In this document: positions 4,974 to 35,246 of the stretch, one piece after another | Layout of the letters: every line of letters starts with the position of its first letter | Numbering within the stretch: the stretch's first letter is position 1 | Assembly: GCA_029593915.1 (NCBI GenBank) | Contig: CP046147.1 | Coordinates: 1,178,001 to 1,242,000, forward strand | Origin: Candidatus Lucifugimonas marina | GTDB taxonomy: Bacteria > Chloroflexota > Dehalococcoidia > Lucifugimonadales > Lucifugimonadaceae | DNA: 64,000 nt | Direction of reading: 5' to 3' | Position numbers and translations under genes: made by a program | The notes under the pieces: generated by a model | What the model was told of the DNA's origin: nothing | Databases searched by the model: none | Seen by the model: the letters and a program-made list of their open reading frames with translations, nothing else

Positions 4974-5112
4974 CGAGTGCCTTTGCTGTTACGGTGCAGC
5001 GTACTCCATCCTGGTAGATATGGGTTGCGTGGAACGAGGGTGAAAGCGATAGTGAATACGCATTCGGCACTCCCAACCAATTTAGTCGATTCGAAATACG
5101 GAGAAATCTCAA

Positions 5113-5460
5113 GTGTCTGCTGATCTGAAGTTTTATTGCTGGTCTCGTTGAAGTACGTGTCAGAAAGCCCGTCGGGCTCTCAATGAATCTAGTTCTGAGT
5201 ACGAATTTCGCGATTTCTTTAAAGACGAGTTATCGGCTGACGAGATTCGAAATCTCGCAAAGCTCACTTCGATCGACGAAATGTTTGCTTGGAAAAGTCC
5301 TAGTTCAAAGCCGTACCGCGACCGCCGAGGCGAAGCTACCGACGATGAGTTGATCGAGTTAATGCTCGAAAATCCGCGACTGATCAGGCGACCGATGCTT
5401 ACCGATGGTTCACAAATAGTTTTCGGATTCAAGCAGGGCGCATACGACGAAATCCTCTGA
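5113..5460 (+). CDS. Candidate selenoprotein: ArsC/Spx-family redox protein with in-frame UGA (UxxC)
   Basis: One frame from GTG 5113 to TGA 5458-5460 encodes 115 residues and contains a single internal TGA at 5149-5151 (codon 13). Read as selenocysteine, the N-terminus is SADLKFYCWSR-U-STCQKARR. The UGA falls exactly where ArsC/Spx/YffB proteins have the first cysteine of their CxxC motif, giving UxxC with C16. The C-terminal part (NPRLIRRPMLTDG, then VFGFKQGAYDEIL) is a clear match to the family's conserved RP-x-L-x-DG and GF end. GGAGA at 5100-5104 is a ribosome binding site 8 nt before GTG. A SECIS-like hairpin follows the UGA. The predicted role is a thioredoxin-fold reductase or oxidoreductase; the substrate is unknown and arsenate is only one option. 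The alternative is a pseudogene with a point nonsense mutation, but the position of the UGA and the otherwise intact frame argue against it. Confidence 0.78.
5163..5181 (+). promoter_or_regulatory. SECIS-like hairpin within the candidate selenoprotein gene
   Basis: Directly after the in-frame UGA (5149-5151) the mRNA can fold: AGCCC (5166-5170) pairs with GGGCT (5174-5178) around a 3-nt loop GUC (5171-5173). The stem continues through one A.C mismatch into GA/UC. The apical loop begins 19 nt after the UGA and its first base is G. Both agree with the general bacterial SECIS rules (short loop with an early G, loop about 16-37 nt after UGA). SelB would bind this element to deliver Sec-tRNA. Visible by eye; not folded by software. 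Confidence 0.6.
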
Positions 5461-5639: not shown

Positions 5640-5831
5640 ATGCTGTACTTGAAATCATGCCCGCGATGCACAGGCGACATTAACGCCGATAGCGACACTC
5701 ACGGAACTTTCTTGAAGTGTTTGCAATGTGGATTCTCGAAAGACCTTTCGCACGATATGGCTGCACGGCTGTTCGGACGACGAATGACTCCGGCTGTGCC
5801 GATCATCGAACCAGGGCAACAGGCTGCTTAA
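5640..5831 (+). CDS. Small zinc-ribbon protein
   Basis: A 63-residue protein with two CxxC knuckles, SCPRCTG (Cys 8 and 11) and CLQCGF near residues 32-35, spaced as in a zinc ribbon. The tail is basic then proline-rich. The ATG is preceded by AGAGGA about 8 nt upstream. Proteins of this kind bind one zinc ion and usually serve as nucleic-acid or protein adaptors; nothing in the sequence fixes the role. It stands alone, between the candidate selenoprotein gene and the enoyl-CoA hydratase gene, with about 180-200 bp of non-coding sequence on either side. Confidence 0.7.
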   Translation: MLYLKSCPRCTGDINADSDTHGTFLKCLQCGFSKDLSHDMAARLFGRRMTPAVPIIEPGQQAA

Positions 5832-13357: not shown

Positions 13358-13414
13358 CAATAATAGGCATTGCGTTCGACCTGACGAACGGCTAGCCTAA
13401 AAGTGATATTGAAT

Positions 13415-13698
13415 CAGCTTCGACGAGAAGTAGTAGCGGATTAGCAGGGTCCAAGAGAGCCGGTGGTTGGTGTGAACCGGAACCCTAGCGTTTGCGAAGT
13501 CGTCTCCGAGCTGGTGGTCTGAAATTTTTGTTTTGCTGAGCACTCAAAACTACTAAGTTCACCCGGTAGCTCCGTTACAGCTAATTGAGTGGTTCATTCG
13601 AATCTAAAAGACGAATGAGCAACGAAGGTGGTACCGCGGTCAACCCGTCCTTTGATGAAGTTATTTTGAAAACTTCTGAAGTGGATGGGTTTTTTATT
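13415..13698 (+). promoter_or_regulatory. T-box riboswitch controlling valS
   Basis: The 391-bp gap before valS holds a complete T-box leader. The diagnostic T-box sequence GAAGGTGGTACCGCGG is at 13624-13639. Stem I closes with CAGCTTCG (13415) against CGAGCTG (13507-13513). The AGAGA bulge and the GGTTGGTGTGAA distal loop are at about 13453-13476. An AGTA...GAA loop-E-like pair flanks a candidate specifier GUC (13499-13501), a valine codon. The terminator is AACCCGTCC (13642-13650) paired with GGATGGGTT (13683-13691), followed by a T-run. Uncharged tRNA-Val would stabilise the antiterminator and allow valS transcription. The specifier assignment is less sure than the T-box itself. Confidence 0.93.
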
Positions 13699-13748: not shown

Positions 13749-16409
13749 TTGAAATCGATAGAGTTTGGCGATCTTCCAAAGCGCTTTGATATCAACGAGC
13801 GTGAACTGCACTGGCGTAAACGCTGGGCCGAGCTTGGCGTCGAGAAGCGCGACCCCAACGCACCGCGTGAGAAGTCGTTCGTCATCGATTCACCACCGCC
13901 GACCGTGAGTGGCTCGCTGCATATCGGGCACATCTTCTCGTACACGCACCAGGACTTGCTCGCTCGTTACAAGCGAATGGCGGGCTGGAACGTTGCCTAC
14001 CCAATGGGCTGGGACGACAACGGACTTCCAACCGAACGTCGGGTTCAGAATTACTTCATGGTTCGCGCCGAACGAGGTGTGCCATACATCGAAAACCTCG
14101 ATGTCGAGGCAGCGCGTGCTGAAAAAGGACTGAAGAAAAACCAACAGCTTGTTATCAACCGACAAAACTTCATAGAGCTGTGTCGCGTTGTAACCGAGAT
14201 GGACGAGATCGTCTTTAAAGAGACGTTCGACCGAATGGGGTACTCGATCGACTGGTCGGATGAATACGCGACTATCGACGAGAAAAGCCGCCGTATCGCT
14301 CAACGAAGTTTCTTGGATCTGTATGAGAAAAATCACGTCTACCAGCTTGAATCGCCAACAATGTGGGACGTCGATTTTCAAACTGCGGTAGCTCAGGCTG
14401 AGGTGGAAGATCGTGAAAAGGGCGGGGCGTATCACGACATCGAGTTTGGTGTATTCGAAGAGGATGCACCAGTTAAGAGTTTCGTTATTTCAACCACTCG
14501 ACCCGAACTACTGGCTGCCTGTGTGGGAATAACTGCTCACCCCGATGATGAACGATTCAAGGGACTGTTTGGCAAGCACGCCGTAACGCCGGGATTCTTC
14601 GCCAAAGTTCCGATCTTCCCGAGCACCGAGGCCGATCCTGAAAAGGGAACCGGAATTTTGATGGTGTGTACGTTTGGTGATCAGACCGACGTTGCGTGGT
14701 GGCGCGAGGAAGGACTAGAGCTGCGCCAGATTATGGGGCGCAACGGTCGGATTCTCGATCATGAATTCGTTGCCGAAGGTGCTGATGGCTGGGAGAGCCT
14801 GAATCCTGCTCGAGCGAATGAAAACTACAAGACCATCGTCGGCAAGCGAACGCCATCGGCTAAGTCGCTCGTTGTAGAGCTAATGCGTGATCCTGAAAAC
14901 TCGGCGACTGGTAACGGCGCTCCGCTTCAGGACGAACCAAAGCAGATTCAACACCCCGTTCGATATTACGAGAAGGGCGATAGTCCTCTCGAATACCTGA
15001 CCACTCGCCAATGGTTCGTTCGCATGCTCGATAAGACCGACCAGATGATCGAAATGGGACGCAAGATCACCTGGCATCCGGAGTTCATGCGAAAGCGATT
15101 CGAGAACTGGACAGAAAATTTGAACGTCGACTGGTGCATTTCGCGCCAACGGTACTTCGGTGTTCCAATTCCTGTTTGGTATCCGCTCGATGATCAGGGT
15201 GAGCCGCAGTACGATCAGGCAATCATCGCAACCCCCGACATGCTTCCGGTTGACCCAGAATCAGTGGCAGCCCCCGGATACGAAGAAAGCCAGCGGGGTG
15301 TTCCCGGCGGATTCTCGGGTGAACCAGATATTTTCGATACGTGGTTCACTTCGTCACTAAGTCCACAGACCGTAGCGCGCTGGGGTGATGAAGATGATCA
15401 GATGAATACGTTGTTCCCGATGGACGTACGTCCGCAGGGTCACGACATTATTCGAACGTGGGCGTTCTACACGATCGCCAAAGCGATGCTGCACCAGGAA
15501 TCGGTTCCGTGGCACAACATCAACCTTTCGGGTTGGGTGCTTGATCCCGACCGGAAGAAGATGTCGAAATCAAAGGGTAATGTAGTAACACCAGTCGATA
15601 CTCTCGACCGGTTTGGTGCCGATGCCGTTCGATACTGGTCGGCATCGTTCAAGCTGGGTACAGATGCTGCACACGACGAGGCAATCTTCAAGATTGGTGG
15701 CAAGCTAGTCACGAAGCTGTATAACGCCGGAAAGTTCGTGTTGGCGCAAACCGCTGACGAAGGTCCGATCACCAACGAGCTAGATCGGGCGTTTATCGCA
15801 GAACTCAAGGAAGTTGTTCGTATCGCGTCTGAAGCATTCGACAAGTTCGAGTTCTCGGTTGCACTACAGGAGACAGAAAAATTCTTTTGGGGTGCATTCA
15901 CCGACAACTACATTGAGTTGCTGAAACGACGTTCACGGTCGGAAGACGACCCCGAAGGTCGCGCCTCGGCGGTTGCAACTCTGCGGCTTGGTCTCAATGT
16001 TGTTTTGCGATTGTTCGCACCTGTTGTTCCGACCATCGCTGATGAAGTTTGGAGCTGGGTTTTCGCCGAAGAGACGGGTCATCCATCGATTCACAAAGCT
16101 CCATGGCCAACGGTTGAGGAGTTGGATTCGATACCTGCTCCTGAAATCGCTGGATCATTCCCAGCTGCGTGTGACGCTATTTCAGCAATTCGCAAAGCCA
16201 AGAGCGAGAGCGGTGTGAGCCTGAATCGTGAGTTGTTGAGCCTCGTGCTTGAGGCTGATGAGGCTGGCCAGTCGGATCTGCGGCTGGTGCTCGATGATGT
16301 GGCAGCCGCCGGTGGGGCAGAGGCGATCAGTTTCGCCACGGGCACACCGACTGCCGATTGGCGATACACCGCAAAGATTGAGGCCGCTGAAGCTCCTGAG
16401 AAGAAGTAG
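13749..16409 (+). CDS. valS: Valyl-tRNA synthetase
   Basis: An 886-residue class I aminoacyl-tRNA synthetase that charges tRNA-Val. The ATP site shows HIGH (residues 58-61, in SGSLHIGHIF) and KMSKS (in DRKKMSKSKGNVV). The zinc-less CP1 editing domain has the conserved STTRPELLAACV. WDDNGLPTERRVQNYF and RPQGHDIIRTWAFY are typical of ValS rather than IleS or LeuS. The start is TTG at 13749, chosen because AGGAAAAG lies 4-10 nt upstream and the protein begins at the usual place. The C-terminal tail is short compared with E. coli ValS and appears to lack the long coiled-coil arm. Expression is set by the T-box leader upstream. Confidence 0.97.
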   Translation: MKSIEFGDLPKRFDINERELHWRKRWAELGVEKRDPNAPREKSFVIDSPPPTVSGSLHIGHIFSYTHQDLLARYKRMAGWNVAYPMGWDDNGLPTERRVQNYFMVRAERGVPYIENLDVEAARAEKGLKKNQQLVINRQNFIELCRVVTEMDEIVFKETFDRMGYSIDWSDEYATIDEKSRRIAQRSFLDLYEKNHVYQLESPTMWDVDFQTAVAQAEVEDREKGGAYHDIEFGVFEEDAPVKSFVISTTRPELLAACVGITAHPDDERFKGLFGKHAVTPGFFAKVPIFPSTEADPEKGTGILMVCTFGDQTDVAWWREEGLELRQIMGRNGRILDHEFVAEGADGWESLNPARANENYKTIVGKRTPSAKSLVVELMRDPENSATGNGAPLQDEPKQIQHPVRYYEKGDSPLEYLTTRQWFVRMLDKTDQMIEMGRKITWHPEFMRKRFENWTENLNVDWCISRQRYFGVPIPVWYPLDDQGEPQYDQAIIATPDMLPVDPESVAAPGYEESQRGVPGGFSGEPDIFDTWFTSSLSPQTVARWGDEDDQMNTLFPMDVRPQGHDIIRTWAFYTIAKAMLHQESVPWHNINLSGWVLDPDRKKMSKSKGNVVTPVDTLDRFGADAVRYWSASFKLGTDAAHDEAIFKIGGKLVTKLYNAGKFVLAQTADEGPITNELDRAFIAELKEVVRIASEAFDKFEFSVALQETEKFFWGAFTDNYIELLKRRSRSEDDPEGRASAVATLRLGLNVVLRLFAPVVPTIADEVWSWVFAEETGHPSIHKAPWPTVEELDSIPAPEIAGSFPAACDAISAIRKAKSESGVSLNRELLSLVLEADEAGQSDLRLVLDDVAAAGGAEAISFATGTPTADWRYTAKIEAAEAPEKK

Positions 16410-34891: not shown

Positions 34892-35087
34892 AATTTAAGG
34901 CTAAATCCTACGCTTTAATATGCGCTTCCAAACTGCGTTAGGCGCATTCTAGCTGCCACCGCAGTAAGCCGCAAACTGGTAGTGGTGAGGAATAACTGGA
35001 CGATTTGACATTGGCTGCTTTGATTGCAAAACTTGCCATAGACGAAGCATCGCTTTGTTGGTGTTGATTGCCTCATTGTGATCGACA

Positions 35088-35180
35088 TACGGGGAGCTCG
35101 GGTAGCCGGGCTGAGAGGGCAGACACAATACTCTGCCAACCCTTGAACCTGATCTGGGTAATGCCAGCGTAGGAAACCGG
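35088..35180 (+). promoter_or_regulatory. TPP (THI-element) riboswitch
   Basis: Within the 355-bp gap before the ABC transporter. The conserved core reads TACGGGGAGCTCGG, then GGCTGAGAGGG (pyrimidine-sensing J3/2 region), then ACCCTTGAACCTGATCTGGG and TAATGCCAGCGTAGGAAA (pyrophosphate helix). The variable P3 arm is GCAGACACAATACTCTGC. The aptamer ends about 67 bp before the ATPase start, space for a switch at the ribosome site or a terminator. It should shut off the transporter when thiamine diphosphate is plentiful. Confidence 0.97.
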
Positions 35181-35246
35181 CCTTAGAGCCACATCCGAGC
35201 GAATATTACTCAGAGTAAAAAGTTATCTGGGGATTCCGCAGGAACG

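Follow-up and report, generated by a model that had tools for sequence, protein, structure and literature searches.

The segment at 5113-5460 of the window (the whole 64,000-nucleotide stretch of DNA that was analysed, 64 kb) is very probably a functional gene for a 115-residue protein with selenocysteine (Sec) at position 13 of a UxxC motif and an ArsC/Spx/YffB fold, whose synthesis would depend on an mRNA hairpin and on SelB. Sequence comparison gives good support to coding on both sides of the UGA, to the presence of Sec machinery in the host, to conservation of the hairpin, and to the predicted fold. The gene and its signals lie as follows:

5100-5104, + strand: GGAGA, likely ribosome-binding site, 8 nt upstream of the GTG
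5113-5460, + strand: ArsC/Spx-like selenoprotein gene, GTG start, 115 residues, Sec at 13, stop TGA 5458-5460
5149-5151, + strand: in-frame TGA read as selenocysteine Sec13 (codon 13); TGA in 37/44 and Cys in 7/44 family copies that reach the site
5158-5160, + strand: Cys16 codon TGT, second residue of UxxC; UxxC in 36/37 family TGA copies, UxxS in one
5166-5178, + strand: SECIS-type mRNA hairpin, 5-bp stem 5166-5170/5174-5178, loop GUC 5171-5173 (comparative evidence)

Reading frame, protein family and predicted fold

The frame from GTG 5113 to TGA 5460 is interrupted by TGA 5149-5151 alone, as the first-pass annotation of this DNA had claimed, and the translation around this codon reads FYCWSR-U-STCQKA. 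The GGAGA that it had placed ahead of the GTG is there as well, and GGAG-like purine-rich stretches also precede many of the relatives' genes (by eye, uncounted). Its expectation that normal ORF calling would overlook such a gene was correct, the gene being absent from the mechanical ORF list.

Several other features should be recorded here as observations in their own right. An extra Cys (Cys9, codon 5137-5139) lies four residues N-terminal to Sec and is found in 18/18 genus-1 family copies; by eye, its position holds Thr or Ser in the Cys genus and His in most other genera, and Cys9 may possibly serve as a second resolving residue. Directly after the selenoprotein gene, ORF 5640-5831 encodes 63 residues with two CxxC pairs and a weak zf_Rg match (19.7 bits, under the cut-off of 25.5). 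Elsewhere in the window there is a T-box leader at 13411-13655 (RF00230, 123.5 bits) upstream of ORF 13749-16409, which looks by eye like a class I aminoacyl-tRNA synthetase, and a TPP riboswitch at 35080-35192 that scores 55.1 bits, barely above the gathering score of 54.3.

The selenoprotein scores 55.7 bits with Pfam ArsC (PF03960; cut-off 24), in line with the claim that the TGA stands where this family has its first redox Cys, and 79.9 bits with NCBIfam TIGR01617 (Spx/MgsR; cut-off 75.05). A structure predicted with 26 aligned sequences as input reaches a mean pLDDT of 92.9. By E-value, Foldseek ranks YffB first for it (1rw1, 26% identity, TM 0.86), the nearest sequence of solved structure is that of Spx (1z3e, E 8.5e-20, TM 0.88), and ArsC of E. 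coli is matched in fold as well (1i9d, for instance, TM 0.68); all three TM values are by query length. The ArsC/Spx-like assignment made at first pass holds by sequence and by predicted fold, and membership in the ArsC/Spx/YffB family is supported at both levels.

We infer that the protein is a UxxC thiol/selenol oxidoreductase. In the earlier description of a thioredoxin-fold reductase, it is the fold that stands, and "reductase" should be taken as a putative function. The hairpin just past UGA 5149-5151 would recruit SelB with Sec-tRNA(UCA), Sec would enter at position 13, and translation would continue to the TGA at 5458. Most likely, the Sec13 selenolate would then attack an oxidised substrate, Cys16 would resolve the adduct to a selenenylsulfide, and a cellular thiol reductant would reduce this Sec13-Cys16 bond. 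The resolving Cys can be lost, since one copy (L055, genome G040) carries UxxS for UxxC, the sole such case among the 37 family TGA copies. No clue to a substrate or partner was found among the gene neighbours.

Two more specific functions should be weighed against this general one. That the protein is an arsenate reductase, in which Sec13 would attack arsenate held by Arg/Lys61 and Arg93, is unlikely. Membership in the Pfam ArsC family speaks for it, as do the structural matches to E. coli ArsC and the alignment of Lys61 and Arg93 with Spx R60 and R92, which we take to be the equivalents of ArsC Arg60 and Arg94. Nevertheless, the arsenate reductase model TIGR00014 fails by a wide interval (34.1 bits, cut-off 106.05), no arsenic-specific family was seen among the seven neighbours scanned, and the arsenate reductase selenoproteins described from the Sargasso Sea carry UxxS where the window protein has UxxC (PMC1088965).

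More doubtful again is a Spx-type regulator armed with Sec, a sensor and not an enzyme, in which a Sec13-Cys16 selenenylsulfide would switch binding to RNA polymerase alpha. The TIGR01617 match and the nearest solved sequence (1z3e) both point this way, UxxC aligns with Spx C10xxC13, and Arg93 with R92. However, the Spx "DG", including G52, which has a role in RNA polymerase alpha binding, is an insertion relative to the ArsC/Spx-like selenoprotein family and is missing here, K62 is replaced by Pro, and scores on the specific Spx models fall far short (NF002459, 44.2/123 bits; NF009885, 41.4/152; NF009210, 35.9/159). Both K62 and R60 matter for activation by Spx (PMC2801614). With neither G52 nor K62 conserved and the specific models missed, Spx-like regulation appears the less likely; were it true, SAR202-type transcription would respond to weaker oxidants than with an all-Cys Spx.

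Codon 13, selection and the decoding machinery

Whichever function it has, the reading as a selenoprotein draws strong support from the conserved TGA, the Sec genes, purifying selection, and the hairpin. The gene has a match in 45/76 genomes of the same taxonomic family, and one of these copies is truncated before the codon-13 site, which leaves 44 to be scored. TGA is present in 37 of them and Cys in the other 7 (5 TGC, 2 TGT); TAA or TAG occurs at the site in 0/44, and no second in-frame stop was found in the aligned region of the 45 copies. An alignment of homologues had been proposed at first pass as a way of looking for Cys or UGA at this codon, and these two are all that the family copies show. 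Nor do close relatives have shifted stops or decayed frames, an outcome that would have told against the proposal: the TGA sits at the same codon and the frames are otherwise open.

The wider samples agree. In a sample of the phylum Chloroflexota, 46/400 genomes match at E <=1e-12, and among the 44 of these that add new copies to the analysis there are 39 with exactly one TGA, always in UxxC, 4 with Cys, and 1 whose match stops short of the site. A collection of named genomes yields 49 loci (41 TGA, 7 Cys, 1 truncated), many from genomes identical to those of the family set, and these should therefore not be taken as additional counts. Named relatives are recorded mostly as Chloroflexi, Dehalococcoidia, or SAR202, and this kinship suggests that the host is of SAR202 type; 5/41 TGA loci of the named collection are labelled Latescibacterota or Latescibacteria. 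One contig (locus L090) is recorded as an uncultured alphaproteobacterium, with a gene 67% identical to the window's and placed within the genus-1 clade; the contig is probably misplaced. A plasmid search returned 63 records, all below 60% identity, with no informative relative among the matches listed (5 of 63).

The codons past the TGA are under purifying selection, judging from comparison of the coding sequences. Against the closest relative, 45/55 differences fall at third codon positions and dN/dS downstream of the UGA is 0.034. Eight genus-1 pairs were compared, giving a dN/dS after the UGA of 0.03-0.18 in 5/8, the other 3/8 being saturated and not computable.

All four Sec genes that the first-pass annotation had suggested searching for (selA, selB, selC, and selD) were found in the host genome, a single contig of 3,094,136 bases (3.09 Mb) listed as 93% complete, so that refutation by their absence did not come about. 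The tRNA-Sec has anticodon TCA and scores 66.4 bits; SelB (343.9 bits), SelA (513.6 bits), and SelD (365.5 bits) are likewise over their cut-offs. As a side observation, the host SelD (L023) has one in-frame TGA of its own, in the motif CAGUAGK, and is therefore probably a selenoprotein too.

Across the 37 family TGA genomes, SelA is over its cut-off in 35, and SelB is over its cut-off in the remaining two (G023 and G035). A tRNA-Sec match of at least 65 bits was counted by hand in only 30 of the 37; in the other 7, the tRNA match is at the level of tRNA-Ser or the assembly is incomplete. One should keep in mind the copy from G023 (L065), which has TGA and no convincing hairpin, in a genome with SelB and neither SelA nor tRNA-Sec over cut-off, in an assembly listed as 86% complete.

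The SECIS-type hairpin

Published criteria for bacterial SECIS elements (bSECIS) include a loop of 3-9 nt with G in one of the first two places, a stem of 4-16 bp, a loop 16-37 nt past the UGA, and an energy of -7.5 kcal/mol or lower (PMC13188914). The window hairpin satisfies the geometry, with its 5-bp stem and a GUC loop at 19 nt. The first-pass annotation was right that a SECIS-like hairpin with a GUC loop is present, but its distance of 19 nt after the UGA is that of the loop and not of the start of the hairpin. The energy is borderline: -9.2 kcal/mol for a 42-nt stretch, -7.4 for 30 nt, and -7.2 for the minimal 19-nt hairpin, the last being 0.3 kcal/mol short of the criterion. Folding of the window sequence had also been proposed; the single sequence folds no better than shuffled ones (42 nt, z -0.98; 29/200 shuffles fold at least equally well). 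Taken copy by copy, the 42 nt downstream of the site mostly do not fold significantly better than a synonymous null. Evidence beyond chance, for the hairpin and for the reading frame alike, comes from comparison.

Genus 1 was tested apart from the other copies, the two having different stems, and each defined stem was compared with 2000 synonymous-codon randomisations. In genus 1, the 5-bp stem that carries a loop of GUC type at 19 nt past the UGA is complete in 18/19 copies (null mean 1.82, maximum 7), the remaining copy (L029) having 4/5 stem pairs, and an 8-bp stem is complete in 19/24 TGA copies outside genus 1 (null mean 0.11, maximum 2). Either stem is complete in 0/7 Cys copies, in which pairing is at null level.

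Since the sequences under test had themselves supplied both defined stems, a position-free test was added, with 39 further TGA copies. Here, whichever hairpin scored highest within the published geometry, at any position, was taken from the real sequence and from each of 200 synonymous-codon versions. The group mean is 13.53 for genus 1 (null 8.35, maximum 11.37; 19 copies), 19.29 for the other TGA copies from the family and named genomes (null 9.42, maximum 12.33; 24 copies), and 17.28 for the phylum TGA copies (null 8.35, maximum 11.69; 39 copies). For the Cys copies it is 6.29 against a null of 8.00 (7 copies) and 9.25 against 8.80 (4 copies); thus, each of the three TGA groups outscores every one of the 200 null means, which neither Cys group does. 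Individual copies exceed their own 90th percentile in 2/19 cases for genus 1, 24/24 for the other TGA copies, and 34/39 for the phylum TGA copies, compared with 0/7 and 0/4 for Cys. A truncated copy (L050) and one whose protein equals that of L119 (L120) were omitted from the defined-stem and position-free tests, and L164 from the latter.

Paired changes on both sides of the stem are seen as well (e.g., +20/+30 is G-C in 16 copies and A-U in 6), in a subset of 22/24 non-genus-1 TGA copies with at least 7/8 pairs, a choice that leans towards the stem. In genus 1, synonymous identity is 0.81 at codons 5-9 past the UGA compared with 0.40 at codons 31-99.

The remaining reading takes the TGA for a true stop in a pseudogene, or for an error of assembly or of a single base in a read, with TGC or TGT mistaken for it (a misreading that the first-pass annotation had allowed for). 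Its one argument is that the window, taken literally, shows a stop codon, and it is vanishingly improbable: TGA at the same codon in 37/44 family and 39/44 further copies refutes it, a read error being excluded by so many genomes, and purifying selection past the TGA, the hairpin, and the complete Sec machinery oppose it.

Exchange of Sec for Cys and comparison with known systems

The tree of 92 rows was built without the Sec/Cys residue, from a short alignment that leaves 25 inner forks unresolved, and L094 and L164 were omitted from it. The 7 Cys copies, all from genus g2, form one clade (100/99) nested in a clade of 43 rows (100/98) whose other 36 rows have Sec; the whole tree requires at least 4 Sec/Cys changes. 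Gene order was compared at 50 loci, where the neighbours include a LytB-family gene (41 loci), PRPP synthetase (38), an MFS transporter (37), an MR/MLE-family enzyme (25), enoyl-CoA hydratase (24), and a SecA-like cluster (18), which we named from its sequence. Around the 7 Cys copies, MFS is present in all 7 cases and LytB and PRPP synthetase in 6 each, two of the contigs being short. Since the Cys clade is nested in a Sec clade and gene order is largely conserved, Sec was most likely swapped for Cys in place in genus g2.

SelA is over its cut-off in 5/7 g2 genomes, and the same 5 have a tRNA-Sec of at least 67 bits; the other two are fragmented, with SelB over cut-off in G004 and not in G002. 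A gene that stays largely in one place, and that in a single clade carries Cys instead of Sec and lacks the hairpin, amounts to a natural experiment. As SelA and tRNA-Sec persist in 5/7 of that clade's genomes, what Sec costs and gains at one active site could be put to a direct test.

The window protein is a genuine, conserved selenoprotein, and UxxC selenoproteins of ArsC type have already been published; because they are in print, the find is less novel than first suggested. Still, a lineage of uncultured ocean bacteria that the literature searched scarcely connects with selenocysteine gains by it a selenoprotein that is well supported and whose relatives can be named. A SAR202 UxxC protein of ArsC type is unnamed in the titles and abstract openings of that literature, which included few subscription papers. 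The gene also escapes both mechanical ORF listing and the curated selenoprotein model NF041106.

Among solved structures, Spx (1z3e, 3gfk, 7f75) shares the fold, the place of the CxxC-type motif, and the Arg92 equivalent, but the window protein is without equivalents of G52 and K62 and is missed by the specific Spx models. YffB is the top structural match, but its model NF008107 is missed (48.4/121 bits), and YffB is not known to have the second Cys of a CxxC.

As for selenoproteins, we take cd03032 to be the Spx branch of ArsC. It is the domain given for the "Arsenate reductase 2" of the Global Ocean Sampling (GOS) data, a UxxC family with 42 Sec forms and 238 Cys homologues, which resembles the window protein in being marine, of the ArsC superfamily, and UxxC; this likeness is one of motif and description, and the passages of that paper used here assign no organism (PMC2398784). 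The Sargasso Sea selenoproteins are likewise of the ArsC family with Sec at the nucleophile position, but their motif is UxxS (PMC1088965). The "Arsenate reductase-like protein" NF041106 has UxxC (PMC13188914; also PMC9312934). This model (ArsC_rel_Se_1, "ArsC family (seleno)protein") likewise describes an ArsC-like UxxC selenoprotein, but the window protein reaches 37.7 bits, below the curated cut-off of 85. Its relatives match the model at E 1e-5 or better in 24/26 scanned (best E 2e-10), the best presumably at about 41 bits, judging from the window protein's score, and so below the same cut-off.
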